From NCBI GenBank assembly GCA_002110465.1, contig NEED01000078.1, positions 1 to 64,000 of the forward strand: a stretch of DNA of 64,000 bases. The letters are read 5' to 3'. Under the pieces are notes generated by a model, which was given only the letters and a program-made list of their open reading frames with translations, had not been told where the DNA came from and made no database searches. The position numbers and the translations under genes were made by a program. The DNA is from an unicellular cyanobacterium SU2. Lineage in GTDB: Bacteria; Cyanobacteriota; Cyanobacteriia; Cyanobacteriales; Microcystaceae. This document shows, in pieces, positions 376-54,063 of the stretch (position 1 is the stretch's first letter; each line of letters begins with the position of its first letter).

Positions 376-3249
376 CTAAACTATTGTTTCAAGAGAGCTA
401 TCGTTTTGGCGATTGGTATAGTTTTTATTCCAGAGACGTTGAAAATCCGAATAACCTAGCTCTTTCGAGTAATCCCAAAGAAGTTTATAGCAAGCGCGTT
501 TACTGGGGATACGGGTTTGAGGATTGAGATAAATATCGCGAACTTTTGGGAAAATCACTACTAGGCGATCGCCTTCTACTATTGAACTAAGGGTTTCGAT
601 AATAAGTTTAAGGGTTGTTTTGCGGCGAGTGATGGCTAACCCTTCGATTAAATTTGGGATAATTTCAGGGTGAGATGGATTATAGGTAGCCAGTTTAGAA
701 ATTAGATAAATACGCTTATGAAGTGGCAAATTATTATCTAATTTTTTCAAGATTGTTTCCGCCGCCAGTTGCAATTCACGGGAAGATTTTTGCTTAGACT
801 TGCGAGGTTTGTTAGACGTAAATTTTGAACGAGGATAAGAGGAAACTAACGGATGCTGGGGAGCAATTTGGGACAATGTATCAATAATATTACTGCGTTG
901 ATGGGCTTCAGTAGCTTCTTGTAACAGCGTTTCCAGGGTTTGTATAGCCAGAGGATGATTAGGAGACAATTTTCCTAAACGCAACGCTGTCTTCCGTAGG
1001 ATACTCACGTTCGCTTCCGTTTTCAGCAGATGGGTGAGGGTTTGCAATAGGGTTTGATTCTTAGGTGCAATTAACCCTAAACTACGGCAAAAGTTGAGTT
1101 TCGCCGAAACATCAATCTCTTCAACCAGTAATTGTTCAAGCGTTGCGATCGCCATTGGACTGCCGAAATCATGATTTTTACCAAGACTATGAGCAGCTAA
1201 CCATTTTTCAAAGGGATTTTCGCTGTGCTGTAGAAAGGCTTCAAGGGCGGGAATTGTTAATCGGCGATCGCTTCGTGATAGGGCAATACCAGCTTGTTCA
1301 ACGATAGGCGTGGGTAAAGCTTCTGCCCCTTTGGGTATCGAAAAACGCCATTGTACCAATTGAGTAATCACCGTTTGAGCGGCAGAAAAATCAGAAAATT
1401 CAGCTAACCCTTGCCCCACCAGACAAATTGCTCGCACGTCATAAAATCCCCCACAATTATCTTGCCATTGCATCAAGGTTTGTAGAAAGGCTTCTTTGTC
1501 TGTATGATCAATATCTTCTCGTCCTAACCACAAGAGAATAATTTCTTGCCAGCTAAATTCAAAAATCGGATAGATTGTTTGTTCATCACCTTCAAAACGA
1601 ATAAAATCTTGCCAATGGGCGATCGCCGTTGCTGCAAAATACTCCTGAAAGGTTGGATGATAAAAACGGTAAACTTTTTCCCCTGTCGCTTCAGCGTGAC
1701 CCACCACATCTAACCATCCCAACTGTAACGCAAGGGTTAACAACTCTGGATCAATCGGATCAAAACATTGCTCGATTTCCCCTTGCTGAAACCGAAACCG
1801 AGGGGGATTTTGTCTCATTCCTTGTAATGCTAACTGCGCCAACGTTTGGTTGAGAGATTGTCGTTGGCTTCTTCTAGTGGGGAAGGCATCCTGTTTCCAG
1901 TCATAAAGGGCTTCTACAAATTGACGATACAAAATCGCTTTGGTGGTGGGCAATTTCCCTTTTGTAAGTTGCCATGTGCGACAAAGTAACGTTAGATAGA
2001 GAGGATGTCGAACCACCTCTCGAATACGCCGATTTACCCGTCTGTCGAGTTCTTGGGATAGGCGATCGCCAAGTTCTGGTTTGGGCTCGAACCATTGCTT
2101 AATAAACAGTTGAATTTGGTTATTATCAGAAAGTTGATCATCGGTGAAACTCTGACAGCGATAGGTTTCAAAATAGCCTAAAGCATTTTTGCCGCCATTC
2201 CAAATGGTATTACGACAGGTTAAGATAATAGACGCATTACCGAGCCAGCCTTGTATTTCTCGTTCTAGGTTGGTAGCAACACGGCTAGATTGTCCACCTA
2301 TTTCATCTAGGGCATCTAACAGTAACCATATCCGACCGGCTTCAATTAAACCAGCAAATTCCCTTAAGGTGTCTGGTGAAATCGTGAATTGTTTTAACCC
2401 CTTGCGTAACCAAGTGGTAGTGAGATAATCTTCGAGCGATCGCCCTTCCAAATCCGCCAACGTCACCCAAACGGGCAGACAATTCGGGGTTTGTGCCAGT
2501 AATAGAGCAAGCTGTTGTAAAAATGTTGTTTTACCTCCCCCTGGTTCCCCGACGATGGCAATGCGAATTTCTGACTCATTAGCATAACGTGCGAGTAACG
2601 CCTGGGGTTCATAGCTAGGGGACTCAGAATTATCCTCTGATAAATCATCAGTTACCACTCCTAACGGAACATATAAATCCCGTAACTCAAACACCATGCC
2701 ATCCCCAGCCGTGAGGGGATTACTGGTCAGACGAGTGTTGAGGGCTTCTTGGCAAATTTCTCGCCATTTTTTGAGAATGTCTGACGCTTTGTCTTTGGCA
2801 TTAGCGACTTGTTTGTCTGACATTACTTTGCCAGACGCACCCGATCGCCGAGTTTCCCAAGTCTGCTCAAAACCTTGAAGATTACCTTCTCGATCCCAGC
2901 GATCACGCCAAAATGTTAGGGTAAAATGCCAATTCTCTGATCCCCGTGTCATGGTGCGATTATCTTCAAGAATGCCTAAAAAATCAGCTAAATGCTTCAA
3001 AGCCATTTTAATCTGCGGCAAGGTTAAGGGTGCATCAGGATTTGAGAGTAGACTGAGGGTTTGCAGATATCGTAGCTTAGTTCGGATAACCAGACGAGTC
3101 GAACTTTGCCAATGGGTTTTAATTTGAGACTGTAACCGCTCAACTGTTGCTTCATCCCCATCCAGGGAATCATTGGCCAAATCAAGCAAGGCAAAAAGTA
3201 GCGACTGCGATCGCCCTTTGGGAACGGCTCCATAACTTTGCTTTGGCAT
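376..3249 (-). CDS. NACHT-domain STAND NTPase with C-terminal HEAT-like repeats
   Basis: A 957-aa signalling ATPase. A Walker A motif GEPGGGKTT lies near residue 235, a NACHT-type Walker B LLLDALDEIGG near 311, and the typical FYHPTFQEYFAATAI segment near 535. Residues from about 560 onward are helical HEAT-like repeats, probably the sensor. The first 200 residues form a separate domain that I cannot name. It contains a WHFTLTFW segment and may be the effector. Bacterial NACHT proteins include anti-phage sensors (family knowledge); defence use here is an inference, supported by the neighbouring reverse transcriptase and Uma2 genes. It is read away from psbA, last in a minus-strand gene run; the upstream Uma2 gene ends 5 bp from its start. 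Confidence 0.85.
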   Translation of the reverse strand: MPKQSYGAVPKGRSQSLLFALLDLANDSLDGDEATVERLQSQIKTHWQSSTRLVIRTKLRYLQTLSLLSNPDAPLTLPQIKMALKHLADFLGILEDNRTMTRGSENWHFTLTFWRDRWDREGNLQGFEQTWETRRSGASGKVMSDKQVANAKDKASDILKKWREICQEALNTRLTSNPLTAGDGMVFELRDLYVPLGVVTDDLSEDNSESPSYEPQALLARYANESEIRIAIVGEPGGGKTTFLQQLALLLAQTPNCLPVWVTLADLEGRSLEDYLTTTWLRKGLKQFTISPDTLREFAGLIEAGRIWLLLDALDEIGGQSSRVATNLEREIQGWLGNASIILTCRNTIWNGGKNALGYFETYRCQSFTDDQLSDNNQIQLFIKQWFEPKPELGDRLSQELDRRVNRRIREVVRHPLYLTLLCRTWQLTKGKLPTTKAILYRQFVEALYDWKQDAFPTRRSQRQSLNQTLAQLALQGMRQNPPRFRFQQGEIEQCFDPIDPELLTLALQLGWLDVVGHAEATGEKVYRFYHPTFQEYFAATAIAHWQDFIRFEGDEQTIYPIFEFSWQEIILLWLGREDIDHTDKEAFLQTLMQWQDNCGGFYDVRAICLVGQGLAEFSDFSAAQTVITQLVQWRFSIPKGAEALPTPIVEQAGIALSRSDRRLTIPALEAFLQHSENPFEKWLAAHSLGKNHDFGSPMAIATLEQLLVEEIDVSAKLNFCRSLGLIAPKNQTLLQTLTHLLKTEANVSILRKTALRLGKLSPNHPLAIQTLETLLQEATEAHQRSNIIDTLSQIAPQHPLVSSYPRSKFTSNKPRKSKQKSSRELQLAAETILKKLDNNLPLHKRIYLISKLATYNPSHPEIIPNLIEGLAITRRKTTLKLIIETLSSIVEGDRLVVIFPKVRDIYLNPQTRIPSKRACYKLLWDYSKELGYSDFQRLWNKNYTNRQNDSSLETIV

Positions 3250-3254
3250 ACCCT

Positions 3255-3818
3255 CTATTCTAGGAGCAAGGCAAAAATATCATTAACCGTTAATTGTAAT
3301 TCTTGTGCAAACGTTGGCAAGGGAATTTTCTGTTCTAGACGATCAAAGACTAAGATTTGCTGTTTGGGGAAGTAGACAAAAACGGTTTTTTCATCGGGAT
3401 CAATTAACCATCCTATTTCCGTGCCATGATCTAAGCAGTGCAGAATGTTTTTGGTTATTCTTGTATGACTTTGGTTAGGTGAAAGAATTTCAATTGTCCA
3501 ATCTGGCGCATTACTAAACGCATTGGCAATCTCACCATTTTCATCCCGTGAAATCCGTGACCACTGGAAAACTGAAATATCGGGAATAAGTGAGCGATCG
3601 CCAAAAGTACACCGCAATTCAGAAAATGCCCTCGCAATTTTTGGTCGTCTTAACGCAAAATTTAGCATTGCGGCTAACTCAGTTTGAATAGAACTGTGTT
3701 TCCCTTGAGGCATCGGCTTTTGAATGATTCGTCCGTTGATATATTCACTAGCGGGTTTCGTTTCGGGTAGTTGAAGAAACTCATCTAGAGAAATCGGTTT
3801 GATCGATGTCTGTAGCAT
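3255..3818 (-). CDS. Uma2 family putative endonuclease (DUF820)
   Basis: A 187-aa single-domain protein of the PD-(D/E)XK-like Uma2 family, which is greatly expanded in cyanobacteria. Visible family features are PDISVF (first acidic residue), WTIEILSPNQS (acidic strand) and the closing GTEIGWLIDPDEKTVFVY segment. The usual lysine position reads N in ITKNILHC, so catalysis is uncertain. It sits 5 bp upstream of the NACHT gene, so the two are probably co-transcribed. No substrate is established for the family. Confidence 0.85.
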   Translation of the reverse strand: MLQTSIKPISLDEFLQLPETKPASEYINGRIIQKPMPQGKHSSIQTELAAMLNFALRRPKIARAFSELRCTFGDRSLIPDISVFQWSRISRDENGEIANAFSNAPDWTIEILSPNQSHTRITKNILHCLDHGTEIGWLIDPDEKTVFVYFPKQQILVFDRLEQKIPLPTFAQELQLTVNDIFALLLE

Positions 3819-4606: not shown

Positions 4607-6103
4607 TTATTCTTGCGAAATAATTTCGGCAATTAGAGCATTTATACGACTTCCTTTCGCAAAATATTTAAGCACATAATTTCTTAAATCTCGATTCTCC
4701 GTTCGGCTTCCAACTGCGGAACTCCAGCTCAACCAATCCGAAGCTCCACTACGTAATATTTCTTCTCTATACTCTCTTAATCCATAACGATGATCTGGAA
4801 TTTCTAAAATCTTTGCTTTTGAAATTTTTGAAGCATCGGGATGTTCAATTAATTCTGAGATAAGCTTATCAACACCTTGTTTTCCCATTAAATAAGTCTC
4901 GACAATATTAGCTATCCAAAACAGAGAATAATCTGAAATAACATCATTTTTGTTAACAAAATCTAACAAAGTTTTTAACAGTGATTGTTTGTCTTCCACA
5001 AACCTTACAAATAAAAAAACATTCTTTGATAAGTAAGGGAATCTCCAAAGAATAGCACTAAGATGCTCTAAAAGATTCTCAGCTTCATCTCTCAGATATG
5101 TGAGAACTAAATCAGCATCATCTTCATTAAAATTAGGAGAGTCTAATAAATTTAGTAGGTAATTAGTTTCTTCCGTTGTCAAAAATTGAGAATCATCAGA
5201 ATTTTCATCCTCTTCTTCCATTGGATCACTGTAAAGACTTTGAAAGGCAGAGCTTCGTTTACGAAGTAATCCTAATCGAACAACATCAATTTGGTTTTCA
5301 AGAAAACCGGTAACACTATGGTTTTGATGAAAATTAAATTTTGTTTTTGAAGGATTGACCGATAATCCCTTTCTCCCTAAAAGTTTCTGTATAAGAATAA
5401 AGTCCTTTTGCAGCTCATTTAAATTATTTGAGAACAAAACAAAATCATCCATAAACCTAAGTAGACAAGGACTTTTAATTCCTGGAAAATTATCAATAAA
5501 CTTCAAAAAATGACTTCCTATCATTTTTGTTGGATATAAACCCTGAGTCAAACAGTCAATAGATCTTCCACCATTAATTTGACGAAGAAATTTTCCAAAG
5601 ATATCTGTATCGGAGTCTTGTATTGCTATGTCCCTAAACCACGAAGATAAATCATGGTGGTAAATTGAGTTGAAGTATGAAGAAATATCAAAAGACAGAC
5701 TAAACTTATATTCGGATGTCTTCTCTAAAATCTTTAGCCTGTATTGCTTATAACTTAAAGATGAGGATATAGGAGTCCCTTCTTCAAAACGATATCCGAA
5801 GTTGCATCGAGCCTTGTCGAAGTCTTTTCTGAATTTTGAACGATGCCTATATACAATGTCATAAATAAATATTTCTGAAACAAAATCTAATTTATGAGTT
5901 CTTCTAAGATGATGGTTATGCTTAGAAGCAAATACTCTTTCTTGCTGTTGGAAATCTCCACTATCAGATGATTCCTTTGATTTAATCTCCTGATAAATAT
6001 AATTAAGGATGATTTGTAATCCACGCTCTATCAACCATAAGTTCGTATTTAAAGGAAATAGTGTTTTAGGTAAATCATCTCGATAGAATTCAAGCAAGAT
6101 CAT
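4607..6103 (-). CDS. Reverse transcriptase of the UG/Abi (defence-associated) type
   Basis: A protein of about 498 aa starting at the internal ATG; a TTG 12 bp upstream is also possible. RT motif A reads SFDISSYFN near residue 140. The catalytic motif C is LLRFMDDFVLFS near residue 219 (FMDD in place of YxDD), followed by GLSVNPSKTKF. Motif B is odd: the usual PQG is replaced in QGLYPTKMIGSHFL. The last 200 residues are helical with no nuclease or maturase signature. There is no group II intron, retron msr/msd or Cas1 beside it. Abi/UG reverse transcriptases with helical C-termini act in phage defence (family knowledge). The assignment to that group, and its exact subclass, are my inference. 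Confidence 0.8.
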   Translation of the reverse strand: MILLEFYRDDLPKTLFPLNTNLWLIERGLQIILNYIYQEIKSKESSDSGDFQQQERVFASKHNHHLRRTHKLDFVSEIFIYDIVYRHRSKFRKDFDKARCNFGYRFEEGTPISSSLSYKQYRLKILEKTSEYKFSLSFDISSYFNSIYHHDLSSWFRDIAIQDSDTDIFGKFLRQINGGRSIDCLTQGLYPTKMIGSHFLKFIDNFPGIKSPCLLRFMDDFVLFSNNLNELQKDFILIQKLLGRKGLSVNPSKTKFNFHQNHSVTGFLENQIDVVRLGLLRKRSSAFQSLYSDPMEEEDENSDDSQFLTTEETNYLLNLLDSPNFNEDDADLVLTYLRDEAENLLEHLSAILWRFPYLSKNVFLFVRFVEDKQSLLKTLLDFVNKNDVISDYSLFWIANIVETYLMGKQGVDKLISELIEHPDASKISKAKILEIPDHRYGLREYREEILRSGASDWLSWSSAVGSRTENRDLRNYVLKYFAKGSRINALIAEIISQE

Positions 6104-6444
6104 TGTATGAAGCAAAAGTTTTTAATCTTCTCAGATGATAATTAGCTATTTCTATCACAGCAAGAATGAATTGGCAATAAGTAATAAAGTGAATTCTTTT
6201 TTCAATCGGCAAGCATAGCGCAAAGTATCTCTCGTCATACAAGTTTTGGGCGCAAGGTCGGCGATCGCCCTCATAATTTCCATCAAATTTTAAACAAAGT
6301 TAGGGGGATACCTCAACTTTTAACATTCCCCCTAATTCAAAAGGCTCATTCAATAAGCGTTTCAGGTGATTCAGCACAAATTGGAATAGGGGTAAAACTA
6401 GCGCGTAAATTTAAGACATCGAAAGGGAAACAACCCAATCGCAA
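6104..6444. other. Gap between the RT gene and the tRNA-like array
   Basis: This stretch separates the divergent RT gene and the plus-strand RNA array and should hold both promoters, although no clear -35/-10 pair stands out. The only strong structure is the inverted repeat TTAGGGGGA/TCCCCCTAA at 6300-6335 (9-bp stem, 18-nt loop, no T-run). One HIP1 octamer is at 6262. Confidence 0.5.
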
Positions 6445-6628
6445 GTAGCAGATAGCCAAATCTGGTAAGGCAACAGTTAAAAGAAATGCCTTGTTCACTC
6501 CCTTACCCATTTTGGGTCGAAGAATGAGGGTTGCGGTGCGACCCCGCGACGACGAAAGTCGCAAGGGAACGCGCACCAAGACAATCGAAAGGTGCTGTGA
6601 CTTGGAGGTTCAAATCCTCCTCTGCTAC
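6445..6628 (+). ncRNA. tRNA-like element A (tRNA-Gln-type body, Y-RNA-like insert)
   Basis: The acceptor stem TAGCAGA (6446-6452) pairs with TCTGCTA (6621-6627), and an extra G-1:C73 pair flanks it. Then come T8 A9, a GCC/GGC D-arm with the conserved GG, a stem ACAGT (6473-6477)/GCTGT (6594-6598), a 5-nt variable region and a perfect T-arm GGAGG-TTCAAAT-CCTCC. The body strongly resembles tRNA-Gln. Where a 7-nt anticodon loop should be there are 116 nt, including GGTCGAAGAATGAGG (6515-6529) in a stem closed by ACCC/GGGT, and a second GC-rich hairpin at about 6535-6576. No anticodon loop can be recognised. Probably a Ro60-associated Y RNA; a degenerate tRNA is the alternative. Confidence 0.65.
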
Positions 6629-6639
6629 ACCCAAATCTT

Positions 6640-6741
6640 GGGCGAGTCTTTCTCCTTTATTGATCACTCACCCGAAAGGGACGCACAGTGGAGGTTATCG
6701 GTAGCTAGAAAGGCGGGGTTCAAATCCTCTCTCGTCCACCA
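6640..6741 (+). ncRNA. tRNA-like element B (acceptor and T-arm, no D-arm)
   Basis: GGGCGAG (6640-6646) pairs with CTCGTCC (6731-6737), followed by an encoded ACCA 3' end. The T-loop TTCAAAT is closed by CGGGG/CCTCT (four pairs). There is no D-arm or anticodon arm. Instead one long arm begins CTTTCT/AGAAAG (6648-6653 with 6707-6712), continues through TTATTGAT/ATCGGTAG-type pairing and CACT/AGTG, and ends in CCC-GAAA-GGG. It carries CCCGAAAGGGACGCA (6671-6685), found again in element E, and GGTTATCG (6693-6700). It starts 11 nt after element A, which suggests a single processed transcript. Confidence 0.6.
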
Positions 6742-6754
6742 AAACCAAACAAAT

Positions 6755-6878
6755 GAGCGGATAGTTTAATGGCAGAACACCTTTCCCTTGTTCACTAACT
6801 TACCCACATGGGTCGAAGAATTGAGGGTTATCGCCTGTCACGCGGGAGGTAGGGGTTCGATTCCCCTTCCGTTCACCA
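6755..6878 (+). ncRNA. tRNA-like element C (tRNA-Asp body with 50-nt insert)
   Basis: GAGCGGA (6755-6761) pairs with TCCGTTC (6868-6874), followed by ACCA. T8 A9, a GTTT/GAAC D-arm and an AGGGG-TTCGATT-CCCCT T-arm are all in place. The canonical tRNA-Asp anticodon loop CTGTCAC (anticodon GTC) is at 6835-6841. Leaving out exactly 6782-6831 joins CC to CGC and gives a perfect CCCGC/GCGGG anticodon stem. The insert holds GGTCGAAGAATTGAGG (6811-6826) and GGTTATCG. The discriminator is A rather than the G73 that marks tRNA-Asp. It is either a Y RNA built on tRNA-Asp or an interrupted tRNA gene. Confidence 0.65.
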
Positions 6879-6966
6879 ACCGCTTTGCGGAAGGCAAAAG
6901 GTAAAAGTCTTATAGAGTCAAGATTTTAACGCTAAAAAACTTACCTTATTGACTTGCAAATTGCTG
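6875..6966 (+). repeat. Array spacer repeat, copy 1
   Basis: Starting at the ACCA of element C, a segment of about 92 bp follows that is nearly repeated after element D. It holds a CCGC-TTT-GCGG hairpin, AAGGCAAAAGG heptad-type repeats, a GTAAAAGTC/GATTTTAAC stem and TTACCTTATTGACTTGC. Confidence 0.8.
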
Positions 6967-6975
6967 TAAATCATG

Positions 6976-7085
6976 GGGGCGGGTAGCTCAGTGGGTAGAG
7001 CAATTTTACCTTATTCGTTTACTAACCTTTTAGGTCGAAGAATGAGGATTACCGGTCGGGAGTTCGAGTCTACCCCACTCCACCA
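6976..7085 (+). ncRNA. tRNA-like element D
   Basis: GGGGCGG (6976-6982) pairs with CCACTCC (7075-7081) with one mismatch, and an encoded ACCA follows. The D-arm GCTC/GAGC is canonical. The T-arm GGGAG-TTCGAGT-CTACC has one mismatch. Between D-stem and T-stem lie 56 nt instead of 23, with no recognisable anticodon arm. They contain the hairpin ACCT-TTT-AGGT and the shared GGTCGAAGAATGAGG (7033-7047). Compared with A and C (ACCC/GGGT) the hairpin pair has changed on both strands (C-G to U-A), which supports a conserved stem. Confidence 0.6.
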
Positions 7086-7181
7086 ACTGCTTTGCGGAAG
7101 GCAAAAAGCAAAAGGTAAAAGTCTTATTAAAGTCAGGATTTTAACTCTAAAAAACTTACCTTATTGACTTGCAAATTGCTG
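7082..7181 (+). repeat. Array spacer repeat, copy 2
   Basis: The second copy follows element D. It is 8 bp longer because it carries one more A-rich heptad unit, and its first hairpin (CTGC-TTT-GCGG) uses a G-U pair. It indicates that a unit of 'tRNA-like RNA plus spacer' was duplicated in tandem. Confidence 0.8.
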
Positions 7182-7188
7182 CATTTAT

Positions 7189-7314
7189 GGAGACGGTAGC
7201 TCAATCGGTAGAGCGCAATTTTTGCCCGAAAGGGACGCAGGACTAAAGGTTATCGCTTTTGAACGAAATCCCCTTTTGTCCGCCGAGATGGGAGTTCAAC
7301 TCTCCCTCGTCTCC
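7189..7314 (+). ncRNA. tRNA-like element E
   Basis: GGAGACG (7189-7195) pairs with CGTCTCC (7308-7314). Read in standard register, the acceptor is GAGACGG/TCGTCTC with an added G-1:C73 pair, as in element A. The D-arm GCTC/GAGC has a normal AATCGGTA loop and the T-arm GGGAG-TTCAACT-CTCCC is perfect. No CCA is encoded. The central region repeats CCCGAAAGGGACGCA (7225-7239) and GGTTATCG (7248-7255), and also has a hairpin ACGAAA-TCCCC-TTTTGT (7263-7279). It lies 54 nt upstream of the Ro60 start codon and is probably on the same transcript or just before its promoter. Confidence 0.6.
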
Positions 7315-7342
7315 CTTCCCATCTAGGGTCTGTCTATTATTA

Positions 7343-7355
7343 TCCCGTAACGGGA
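7343..7355 (+). promoter_or_regulatory. Hairpin just upstream of the Ro60 ribosome binding site
   Basis: TCCCG-TAA-CGGGA forms a 5-bp stem that abuts the GGAG ribosome binding site of the next gene. It could influence translation or stop read-through from the RNA array; there is no T-run. Confidence 0.4.
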
Positions 7356-7368
7356 CGGAGTGGTTAAG

Positions 7369-8967
7369 ATGTCATATAAATTTTTTACTTCTCGCAAGCA
7401 TACACCGCAATCTGCGCCTATTCCTGGTCGTGCGGCTGAAATGTTGAAAGGGCGTTCAGGGGGTTATCATTTTGACCCTGGAATTTGGGCAATGTTGCGT
7501 CGTTGTCTGTTGATTGGAACTGCTCAAAGTACCTTTTATGCGGATAAACATGAGTTAACAGGGGAGTTTACCCAAGTTGTTAATCAATCTGTGGCTGAAG
7601 ATCCCGCACGAGTGGCTAAAGAAATCATTTATGCTAGTGATGGACGCTCCATTAACAATAGTGCGCCGTTGTACGCCTTAACTTTGCTCTCTATGGGGGA
7701 TTCTCCTGAAGCCAAACGAGCATTTATGGAAATTTTTCCTCAAATAGTGCGGACAGGTAGTCATTTCTATGAGTGGTTGAGCTACTCCAAGGCTTTACGG
7801 GGTTTTGGAAAAGTTGTCCGCGAGTGCGGTAAAAGTTGGTTGAGTAATGCTGATGTGAAAGGGTTAGCCTACCAACTGCTGAAATATCAACAACGTCAGG
7901 GGTTTACCAACCGCGATGCGTTGCGTCTATTTCATGTCAAACCTGTTACGGCTGAGCATCAAGCTTTGTATGATTGGGTGGTGAATGGTTGGGAAACCTT
8001 ACCGAAACAAACCCCTTTTGATTCTCTGGCACAAATCTGGTGGTATGAATGGCTCAAGCGTCATCCAACGGAAACCAAAAAGGCGATCGCCGAAGGTCAT
8101 TTAACTCACGAAATGGTTGCACCTATCGGCCAGATGGATGAGCAAGCGTGGAAACTATTGATGAAGGAAATGCCCATTGGTGCATTGTTGCGTAACCTCG
8201 GTTCTTTAACAGAAATTGGGGTTTTACGGATGAATCGTCAAAAAAACCTCAACCATGTGGCATCTGTTCTCAATAGCCGCGATCGCCTTCGTAAGGGTCG
8301 CATCCATCCTATTGATGTGTTAAAAGCCTTGAAAACTTATCAATCTGGGGGGCGTTTGGGTCGGAGTCAAAAAACATGGCAACCTGTACCTCGCATTATC
8401 GACATTCTCGAAAAAGCGTTGGAGATGTCTTTTGAGACGGTTCCAGCGACGGGGAAAACCTTTCTCCATGCGGTGGATATTTCGGGTTCTATGTCCTATT
8501 ATTCCGTGAGTTCCGTCGGGTTGACCTGCTGTGAAATTGCTACGGTGATGGCCTTGGTGACAGCAAAAGCGGAAAAAAATTATGCGATTCGGGGTTTTTC
8601 TACTGCTTTTAAAGATTTAGGGATTACAGCCTCTGATAGTTTTCATTCAGCAATGAAGAAAGTGAGTGATCAAAATTTCGGGGGGACTGATGCGTCTTCT
8701 GCTTACAAATGGGCAATCAAACATCAATTCTGGGCGGATGTGATTTGCTTCTGGACGGATTCTGAGTCTTGGGCGGGTACTCAGCCGTGTCAAATGTTGG
8801 CACAATACCGCCGTCAGGTAAATCCAAATGTCAAGGCGATTTATGTAACATTGGCTCCCTACCAATTAACTTTAGTCGATCCTAAAGATCCTCAATCTTG
8901 GGATTTTGGTGGCTTTGATCCTTCTATGCCCCGTGTTATTCAAATGATTGCTAATGGTGATGTTTAA
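7369..8967 (+). CDS. rsr: Ro60/Rsr ortholog (TROVE domain plus vWA domain)
   Basis: A 532-aa ring-shaped RNA-binding protein. The first 340 residues are the TROVE HEAT-type domain, with SNADVKGLAYQLLKYQ and GFTNRDALRLFHVKP. Residues 360-532 are a von Willebrand A domain with an intact MIDAS site: DISGSM (Asp370), GGTDAS and WTDSES. Bacterial Rsr proteins bind misfolded RNA and Y RNAs, and pair with PNPase or Rtc repair enzymes in other bacteria; none of those partners is next to it here. I chose ATG 7369 because GGAG lies 8 nt before it; GTG at 7360 overlaps that site. The tRNA-like array directly upstream, in the same direction, is the probable RNA partner. Confidence 0.93.
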   Translation: MSYKFFTSRKHTPQSAPIPGRAAEMLKGRSGGYHFDPGIWAMLRRCLLIGTAQSTFYADKHELTGEFTQVVNQSVAEDPARVAKEIIYASDGRSINNSAPLYALTLLSMGDSPEAKRAFMEIFPQIVRTGSHFYEWLSYSKALRGFGKVVRECGKSWLSNADVKGLAYQLLKYQQRQGFTNRDALRLFHVKPVTAEHQALYDWVVNGWETLPKQTPFDSLAQIWWYEWLKRHPTETKKAIAEGHLTHEMVAPIGQMDEQAWKLLMKEMPIGALLRNLGSLTEIGVLRMNRQKNLNHVASVLNSRDRLRKGRIHPIDVLKALKTYQSGGRLGRSQKTWQPVPRIIDILEKALEMSFETVPATGKTFLHAVDISGSMSYYSVSSVGLTCCEIATVMALVTAKAEKNYAIRGFSTAFKDLGITASDSFHSAMKKVSDQNFGGTDASSAYKWAIKHQFWADVICFWTDSESWAGTQPCQMLAQYRRQVNPNVKAIYVTLAPYQLTLVDPKDPQSWDFGGFDPSMPRVIQMIANGDV

Positions 8968-53746: not shown

Positions 53747-53980
53747 GGAAAGCTTAATTAAAAATAAAATACAAAAGTTTGTAGTCAAGGCTTTAGCCCT
53801 CAGTTGCCTTGAAAATCCCAATTTGAAGTTAGTTCTATTTTTTCACTTTATGGGACATTTTTATAAACTCTATATATTAGTAAGACATTGCAACTTTTTC
53901 AGTCACAATGTCCTACCGTTGGTGCGCGATAACCCTAAAATCTTCGGCCTTTTCAGGCAAGATAGCGATTGCAGGAATTT

Positions 53981-54063
53981 AATTAGGGCAGGACTCGAAC
54001 CTGCTTCTCCTCTTATTTTTGAGAACAAGCGGTATTTTTTCTCTTGTTAAACTACCTACGCTT
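53981..54063 (-). ncRNA. Degenerate tRNA-like sequence
   Basis: On the minus strand a perfect T-arm GCAGG-TTCGAGT-CCTGC is preceded by a TTCTC/GAGGA stem with an 8-nt loop lacking U33, and by TAGTTTAAC, which resembles a D-arm but lacks GG. Acceptor pairing is only about four pairs. It looks like a decayed tRNA rather than a working one. Confidence 0.4.

Follow-up and report, generated by a model that had tools for sequence, protein, structure and literature searches.

In the 64,000-nucleotide stretch analyzed here (positions 1 to 64,000 of contig NEED01000078.1, assembly GCA_002110465.1, from the unicellular cyanobacterium SU2; hereafter the window), five tRNA-like elements, E1 to E5, lie head to tail on the plus strand upstream of rsr, the gene for the Ro60 protein Rsr, a caretaker of RNA. 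The initial annotation had described five consecutive tRNA-like elements followed on the same strand by a gene for a TROVE-vWA protein, and both observations held: all five elements were found in place, with ends refined by a base or so, and the next gene encodes TROVE and vWA_Ro60 domains. Likewise, the four D-arms (E1, E3, E4, and E5) and the three encoded ACCA ends (E2, E3, and E4; ACCC in E1, none in E5) were recovered as described. The hairpin inserted into the tRNA-like body, which is predicted to bind Ro60, is termed the Ro hairpin below; bit scores refer to two covariance models, R1 for the full unit and R2 for the Ro hairpin only.

E1, 6446-6627, plus strand: tRNA-like with D-arm; ACAG/CUGU closing round a long insert that contains the Ro hairpin 6487-6535 plus another, GC-rich hairpin; CCA not encoded; R1 54 bits, R2 45.4 bits (E1 hairpin part of the R2 alignment); folding-energy z -4.95
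E2, 6640-6741, plus strand: acceptor and T-arm, standard D-arm absent; Ro hairpin 6653-6700 within a D-arm-like stem; ACCA encoded; R1 33.9 bits, R2 52.3 bits (E2 part of the R2 alignment)
E3, 6755-6878, plus strand: best-formed unit, with D-arm; Ro hairpin 6784-6833 between tRNA positions 28 (6781) and 29 (6832); anticodon arm retained at 6832-6846 (loop CUGUCAC); encoded ACCA end; R1 103.4 bits, R2 69 bits (E3 part of both alignments)
E4, 6977-7085, plus strand: D-arm present; Ro hairpin 7007-7054 replacing the anticodon arm; acceptor with 5 of 7 pairs (by eye); ACCA encoded; R1 51.4 bits, R2 50.3 bits (E4 part of the R2 alignment)
E5, 7190-7313, plus strand: type B, with D-arm; Ro-site strands rearranged (by eye), with the tip hairpin first, then the motif and, 3' of it, the partner strand; CCA not encoded; extra pair 7189:7314 possible; R1 48.2 bits, R2 just 15.9 bits
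leader hairpin, 7342-7360, plus strand: UCCCGUAACGGGA plus CGGAG; overlaps the likely Shine-Dalgarno sequence of rsr and resembles the tip of the Ro hairpin
rsr (Ro60), 7369-8967, plus strand: TROVE and vWA_Ro60 domains; next gene after the array

ARAGORN called no tRNA anywhere in the window, and no Rfam family reached its gathering score in a whole-window scan; in a smaller search space the Rfam tRNA model scored 39.5 bits on E5, which passes its gathering score of 29, 26.5 bits on E4 and 24.9 bits on part of E3. Folding-energy z values of the single elements were modest, from -0.57 (E3) to -2.33, with full-length E1 as the exception, and the case made here therefore rests on comparison and not on folding energy. 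The host genome carries 39 ordinary tRNAs, which together cover all 20 amino acids. Compared with these, the D- and T-side arms of E1, E3, E4, and E5 scored 34-38 (maximum 50) against the best of the 39, and the best-matching tRNAs were neither Gln nor Asp (E2 was compared on 24 T-side bases alone); as sequence identity, the Gln- and Asp-type disguise proposed in the initial annotation is thus not supported. The sole Asp-like feature is the E3 anticodon loop, which is that of tRNA-Asp, and a search for parents of E1 to E5 among the 39 tRNAs gave no clear candidate.

For rsr, the ATG at 7369 is more likely to be the start than the GTG at 7360; most homologues align from window residue 4. The encoded protein matches the solved structures of D. 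radiodurans Rsr (2nvo, the best match) and Xenopus Ro60 (1yvp), and the equivalents of Xenopus K170, R174, and H187, which we take to be Y RNA contacts, are conserved when counted along the structure-match alignment. The host genome holds one Ro60 match; an unlinked RtcB is present as well.

Conservation and structure of the units

From a protein scan of bacterial and archaeal genomes with the window Ro60, the best 80 of 126 relatives, with 69-73% identity, were kept, and all of these best 80 are named as cyanobacteria. Together with three of four matching Picosynechococcus plasmids and the window they form a set of 84 loci, which was searched with a scanner for an acceptor stem, a T-arm and the start of a D-arm. 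Within 1.3 kb upstream of rsr, 222 units bearing a GGUUAUC-type motif were detected in the 84 loci including the window, with at least one unit in 82 of 84 loci and two to five in 75 of 84; such an array, of three units ahead of SYNPCC7002_RS15900, is also present on plasmid pAQ7 of Picosynechococcus PCC 7002, and the arrangement is thus not peculiar to the SU2 genome. Unit density amounted to 2.13 per kb upstream of rsr as compared to 0.078 per kb in the rest of the loci (which includes units downstream of rsr), the opposite strand of the 84 loci contained no scanner unit in 104 kb, and all 298 R2 hairpin matches (E ≤ 0.01) in 83 loci were on the rsr strand. In many loci an extra unit without D-arm was observed directly downstream of rsr (L006 6689-6737, L008 6706-6754, and others), followed in L006 and L008 by a T-run, and the Prochloron didemni locus (L070, 1808-4919) holds eleven R2 hairpin matches across about 3 kb upstream of rsr.

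A structure alignment with 34 pairs was made from 20 diverse units, from which R1 was also built; these go back to 109 units in which four or more of the five anticodon pairs form, of which 24 dissimilar ones were taken, minus three longer and one shorter form. In the alignment 97.2% of cells are paired and 105 cells show double changes, where shuffles gave 28.3 and slid structures no more than 16. Covariation was found in every helix, including double changes at six of seven acceptor pairs within units, and helices 2 and 7 support the tRNA-like module with D- and T-arm. Unaided, RNAalifold recovered the acceptor, the D-arm, the T-arm and the Ro hairpin in both its parts, as well as two inner pairs of the anticodon stem, to which a further inner pair and two outer ones were added by hand. 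The Ro hairpin alone, aligned from 21 units of several classes, covaries as well, with 28 double-change cells as compared to 9.4 in shuffles and at most 7 in slid structures. This hairpin test is free of pairing selection, as are the separate tests of the acceptor (204 units) and of the anticodon arm (148 units) described below.

Beside the tip helix of the Ro hairpin, the 20 units share a signature consisting of C and G (20/20 each), a following A (17/20) and an opposite UU (20/20), and the wider set of 21 hairpins shows C in 18, G in 21, A in 17 and the opposite UU in 19. In the vertebrate Y RNAs, as described in the consulted part of PMC4726728, the Ro60 site is a helix in which a lone cytidine bulges from one strand and the opposite strand is bulged too; the fold predicted for the Ro stem of the units has the same make-up, with just one bulged C and, on the opposite strand, an asymmetric bulge.

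When units were anchored on their D- and T-arm motifs, that is, without use of the acceptor itself, the acceptor strands paired at 7 of 7 positions within the unit in 174 of 204 cases, whereas such pairing between neighbouring units was seen in 17 of 106 (28% for randomly combined strands). Among the 106 neighbour pairs, within-unit acceptor pairing was better in 74, equal in 19 and worse in 13. CCA is encoded after the acceptor in 87 of 204 units, and an eighth acceptor pair, G-1:C73, is possible in 139 of 204.

The site at which the hairpin is grafted was analyzed in the 148 of 213 distinct units whose linker measures 13-22 nt and whose D-arm can be recognised. With the Ro hairpin placed between tRNA positions 28 and 29, a perfect five-pair anticodon stem resulted in 71 of 148 units, as compared to 1.17 on average with shuffled linkers and 0-4 with a shifted site. 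All 71 carry U33 and a purine at position 37 (14.5% in shuffles), and the outer pairs 27-28/42-43 covary (71/78 as compared to 46 in shuffles). A looser test, in which 3-pair stems anywhere in the linker were accepted, gave an anticodon arm in 101 of 174 units with about 39% in shuffles and was superseded by the fixed-position test. The 71 units present 22 different loops and 16 anticodons. The commonest of these, with 21 units, is AGG, whose A34 makes it an unusual anticodon for bacterial tRNA-Pro; this, together with the change of anticodon between counterparts (GUC in E3, GUU in the first unit of PCC 7002), speaks against decoding.

The initial annotation had the anticodon regions replaced or invaded by longer structures; this applies insofar as a Ro hairpin is inserted, but E3 and the commonest class keep an anticodon arm and carry the graft at 28/29. 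A rough sorting of the 213 units assigned 96 to the 28/29 site (4 of 5 pairs allowed), 26 to a hairpin replacing the anticodon loop, 12 to a position 3' of an anticodon-like arm, 10 to units without standard D-arm, 33 to type B and 36 to other forms, with some variable-region grafts counted among the anticodon-loop replacements by the automatic classification. Taken all together, the tRNA-like units are a genuine feature under selection, found widely among the cyanobacteria that have this Ro60.

Distribution across the phylum

For the count of genomes, R1 was tried on 386 genomes of the phylum and set aside as uninformative: ordinary tRNAs, too, score about 50 bits with it, and 386 of 386 genomes gave a match. 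For this reason the hairpin-only model R2 was built. R2 matches at E ≤ 0.01, with E-values that are rough owing to a short calibration, were obtained in 39 of 386 genomes. Ro60 matches at E ≤ 1e-10 were likewise found in 39 of 386, of which 32 are at 69% identity or more, four are divergent (32-35%) and three are partial. All 32 genomes with a Ro60 of at least 69% identity have R2 matches (E below 1e-8), and by coordinates these matches fall no farther than about 1.7 kb from rsr, apart from one orphan in the SU2 genome (53927-53977) and one in another genome of the genus (L157). Thus, the clustering beside rsr that the initial annotation had suggested looking for in other genomes with a covariance model was observed both here and in the 83 loci, and its idea of a multi-RNA tRNA-like system tied to Ro60 is supported. 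As in Y RNA systems, the units are encoded next to Ro60, in 82 of 84 loci and in 32 of 32 genomes with a close Ro60.

The weight of the R2 result lies in its absence elsewhere and in the distant cases. Among the 347 genomes without Ro60 match, R2 matches were found in six, four of them weak (E 0.001-0.006); the other two, G048 and G385, have matches at 1.3e-6 and 1.8e-5, respectively, which are degenerate by eye. Of the genomes with divergent Ro60, G044, which belongs to another class, has R2 and R1 matches in units about 3 kb from Ro60, set in a long array of ordinary tRNAs (23 Rfam tRNA matches in 6 kb), and no convincing R2 match was detected in G021, G041, and G127. A scan of viral contigs with the window Ro60, whose reach is close relatives, gave no match. 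On the minus strand of the G044 locus (L158), permuted units were seen together with a full-length match to the Rfam YrlA model (3420-3521, 38.4 bits) and the divergent Ro60; both wirings, that of YrlA and the permuted one, may coexist in this genome.

A second Y-RNA-like locus lies in the window itself, about 45 kb from the array, and has a relative in another genome of the same genus (L157):

second Y-RNA-like locus, 53883-54061, minus strand: tRNA-like 5' part, then a Ro hairpin and a strong terminal hairpin (by eye)
its hairpin, 53927-53977, minus strand: Ro hairpin 3' of the T-arm; R2 49.3 bits, absent from the R2 alignment

In G122, a genome without Ro60 match, a tRNA cluster on the minus strand (L161, C1:57400-58100) contains at least two tRNAs with an insert of about 45-55 nt between D-arm and anticodon arm. 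The insert comprises a hairpin and a repeated ACAGCA-type motif, is unlike the Ro hairpin in sequence, and possibly represents an analogous family.

Two genes on the minus strand of the window lie on the far side of the array from rsr. A reverse transcriptase (4607-6115), divergent from the array, matches Drt5 defence reverse transcriptases (PADLOC, E 7e-191), and an EAD4-NACHT-HEAT protein is encoded at 376-3249, with no PADLOC match. A link of the array with the neighbouring reverse transcriptase was considered and dropped; the neighbours of rsr differ in PCC 7002.

Relation to YrlA and alternative explanations

The point that is new with respect to the initial annotation is the wiring, since the units look like circular permutations of YrlA. 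In the Rfam YrlA model (RF02553) the order is Ro strand, T-arm, closed acceptor hairpin, D-arm, Ro strand, whereas in the cyanobacterial units it is acceptor, D-arm, Ro hairpin, (anticodon arm), T-arm, acceptor; judged by the order of parts in the predicted folds, the units are a circular permutation of YrlA. Read as a circle, the two share their parts and the succession of these (Ro-binding stem, T-arm, acceptor, D-arm), and both are encoded near rsr. The ends of the units, however, are predicted to lie on the acceptor stem, those of YrlA being on the Ro stem; moreover, the acceptor of the units is open and often followed by an encoded CCA, an anticodon arm is often present, usually two or more units occur per locus, and scores stay below the Rfam gathering score. 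We know of no free acceptor or CCA end in YrlA, which fits the closed stem of the Rfam model. The units depart from two defining YrlA features: instead of 5' and 3' ends that pair to form the Ro stem, both Ro strands are predicted to lie inside one unit, and instead of a closed acceptor, 87 of 204 units encode CCA. They were therefore not placed in RF02553 and are regarded as Y RNAs of YrlA type outside that family.

Circular permutation of a tRNA-like RNA has a precedent in permuted tmRNA (RF04321), although this is another RNA and has no Ro60. Vertebrate and Deinococcus Y RNAs lack a tRNA body to our knowledge, and they differ from the units in that their ends pair to form the Ro stem. What they share with them is the Ro site with a bulged C and an asymmetric opposite bulge (for vertebrates, in the consulted part of PMC4726728). 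Nine Ro60 loci of phages or of plasmids from other phyla served as an outgroup; six of them matched YrlA in its own register, three at full length and three over the tRNA-like part alone, all below the gathering score. No convincing R2 match to the permuted hairpin was found in these nine loci: the best reached 17.3, 11.7, and 9.7 bits, and the 17.3-bit match (E 0.008) lies on the minus strand within a phage tmRNA (L171).

At the sequence level, a covarying structure, the signature of the Ro site, the association with rsr and an order of parts that is permuted with respect to YrlA together point to the array being a family of inside-out Y RNAs, in which the ends lie on the tRNA acceptor and a capped Ro60-binding stem is grafted into the tRNA body, and we estimate the probability of this reading at roughly 0.8. 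Several observations weigh against it. Many of the 84 loci come from related Nostocales, so the counts are not independent. The scanner demanded acceptor and T-stem pairing and the selection of units demanded anticodon pairs, so that these helices were partly pre-chosen, and R2 was built partly from E1 to E4 and from loci of the same groups, so that matches in near relatives are expected. The matches to the YrlA model reach at best 52.1 bits as compared to a gathering score of 69 and are out of register, and a scan of L045, the rsr locus of Chlorogloeopsis fritschii PCC 6912, gave no YrlA match. The array is heterogeneous, with 36 of 213 units in the class of other forms, 33 of type B and 10 without standard D-arm, and with a mispaired acceptor in E4. 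A promoter scan was at chance level overall and found no promoter-like site upstream of E1 on the plus strand. Finally, the steps of processing and autoregulation outlined below are ones that we infer.

The YrlA matches might also mean that ordinary YrlA RNAs are produced from the array, each spanning the 3' half of a unit and the 5' half of the following one. Seven matches, up to 52.1 bits, occur in the arrays of L008, L014, L022, L028, and L081, and by coordinates all seven straddle two neighbouring units, starting in one and ending in the next; in the SU2 genome there was no YrlA match at E 0.001. Nevertheless, the acceptor strands pair within and not between units (the 74, 19, and 13 of 106 given above), double changes within units affect six of seven acceptor pairs, and both Ro strands stand next to each other in one unit with a short loop, which makes ordinary YrlA processing highly improbable. 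A decaying tRNA array, for instance pseudogenes of phage origin that came to lie near rsr by chance, would account for the damaged elements E2 and E4 and for the units inside the long ordinary tRNA array of the distant genome G044. The compensatory changes in every helix bring this explanation close to refuted, U33 and a purine at 37 are kept in 71 of 71 units, the position beside rsr is conserved, and copies that do look degenerate by eye occur in two genomes without Ro60 match, G048 and G385; its probability is accordingly minute.

Working tRNAs could be produced if the hairpin were a spliced intron, perhaps with ligation by RtcB. The genome encodes RtcB, and in a published coculture an rtcB gene rises together with a TROVE gene (PMC11423583, consulted in part). 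In silico removal of the hairpin yielded an ARAGORN tRNA in 123 of 148 units, as compared to 0 of 148 unspliced. ARAGORN turned out to be permissive, however, since 85-101 of 148 units were still called with the anticodon region shuffled and shifted cuts performed equally, and the result was discarded as proof. In 2017, cyanobacterial tRNA 'group I introns' of 22-49 nt were reported (PMC5733544); as given in the consulted part of that paper, those in tRNA-Gly(TCC) of Nostoc sp. PCC 7107 and tRNA-Lys(CTT) of Gloeocapsa sp. PCC 73106 share the motifs CTTGxCT, AAGxC, and GAAGAAT, which are absent from a third intron, of Nostoc sp. PCC 7524. As these motifs fit the Ro hairpin, the two introns are, going by the printed motifs alone, probably misread members of the permuted Y RNA family; the likeness lies in the motifs, and the difference in that they were read as introns, with Ro60 unmentioned in that part of the paper. 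No Rfam group I intron was matched in window positions 6200-7420 (E ≤ 5) or in five loci (E ≤ 0.5). Splicing is further opposed by the ordinary tRNAs that already cover all 20 amino acids, by the commonest anticodon being the atypical AGG (21/71), by the units in which the hairpin replaces the anticodon loop or sits in a D-arm-like stem and those of type B, none of which would yield a tRNA, and by the insert itself, which bears the Ro-site signature and tracks Ro60. We thus consider spliced tRNA genes very unlikely.

Possible mechanism and implications

Ro60 binding, processing and function of the inside-out Y RNAs are predictions from sequence, for which we propose the following scheme. The units and rsr would form one transcript, from which RNase P, the 3' tRNA endonuclease and CCA addition would free the individual units, so that each Rsr message would yield several Y RNAs. 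Rsr would bind the grafted hairpin, and the tRNA-shaped body would either gate Rsr or connect it with a tRNA-recognising partner. A Y RNA that tethers Rsr to PNPase is described for D. radiodurans (consulted parts of PMC7790460 and PMC4726728). Directly before rsr, a leader hairpin of the type UUUUUGCCCGCAAGGGCCGGGAG overlaps the likely ribosome-binding site and has been likened here to the Ro hairpin tip UUGCCU-GCAA-AGGCCGAAG; a strict pattern for it was present in 67 of 84 leaders, a count made without shuffle control, and the window and PCC 7002 have a shorter form. By binding this copy of the tip, Rsr may repress its own translation.

A role in the stress response to damaged tRNAs or impaired translation is probable, a link that draws on two printed remarks on expression: erythromycin strongly induces a TROVE gene in Chlorogloeopsis fritschii PCC 9212 (PMC6424891, consulted in part), the same species as PCC 6912 of locus L045, and the TROVE and rtcB genes rise together in the coculture mentioned above. 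Regarding purpose, the tRNA body might be a decoy or sensor whose anticodon loops bait tRNA-cutting enzymes, with Rsr collecting the products or helping in their repair. This would be compatible with the inside-out reading and would suit the many different anticodons, the induction of the TROVE gene by a translation inhibitor and the idea, voiced in the consulted part of PMC7790460, of YrlA as a competitive inhibitor. Yet many units have no anticodon arm, the anticodon drifts between counterparts (E3 GUC, PCC 7002 GUU), and YrlA fragments were undetected in a Salmonella study according to the same part of PMC7790460; the decoy function is therefore doubtful. Only tentatively, and as a minority view of our own, do we suggest that the Ro60 RNAs, as a large family, are matured as real tRNAs whose free ends carry CCA and present varied anticodon loops on Rsr as bait or sensors of tRNA damage, with autofeedback of Rsr through the copied tip.

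Among the matches listed in a literature search, as judged by titles and abstract openings and with the primary YrlA papers outside its scope, permuted or cyanobacterial Y RNAs are undescribed, and we think it rather unlikely that an earlier description of such cyanobacterial Y RNAs exists in print. If the inside-out reading is true, it would mean that circular permutation has been combined with the repeated grafting of a protein-binding hairpin into different sites of the tRNA fold; it would also explain the 'introns' printed earlier in cyanobacterial tRNAs and would suggest a simple autoregulatory loop of Ro60. Its closed acceptor puts YrlA out of reach of ordinary tRNA end-processing, of CCA addition and of aminoacylation. 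By contrast, the open acceptor ends and the frequent anticodon arm of the cyanobacterial units make the tRNA side directly testable in the model cyanobacterium PCC 7002. The units thus bear on the question of why bacterial Y RNAs mimic tRNA and offer a lead on how Ro60 links to tRNA biology.

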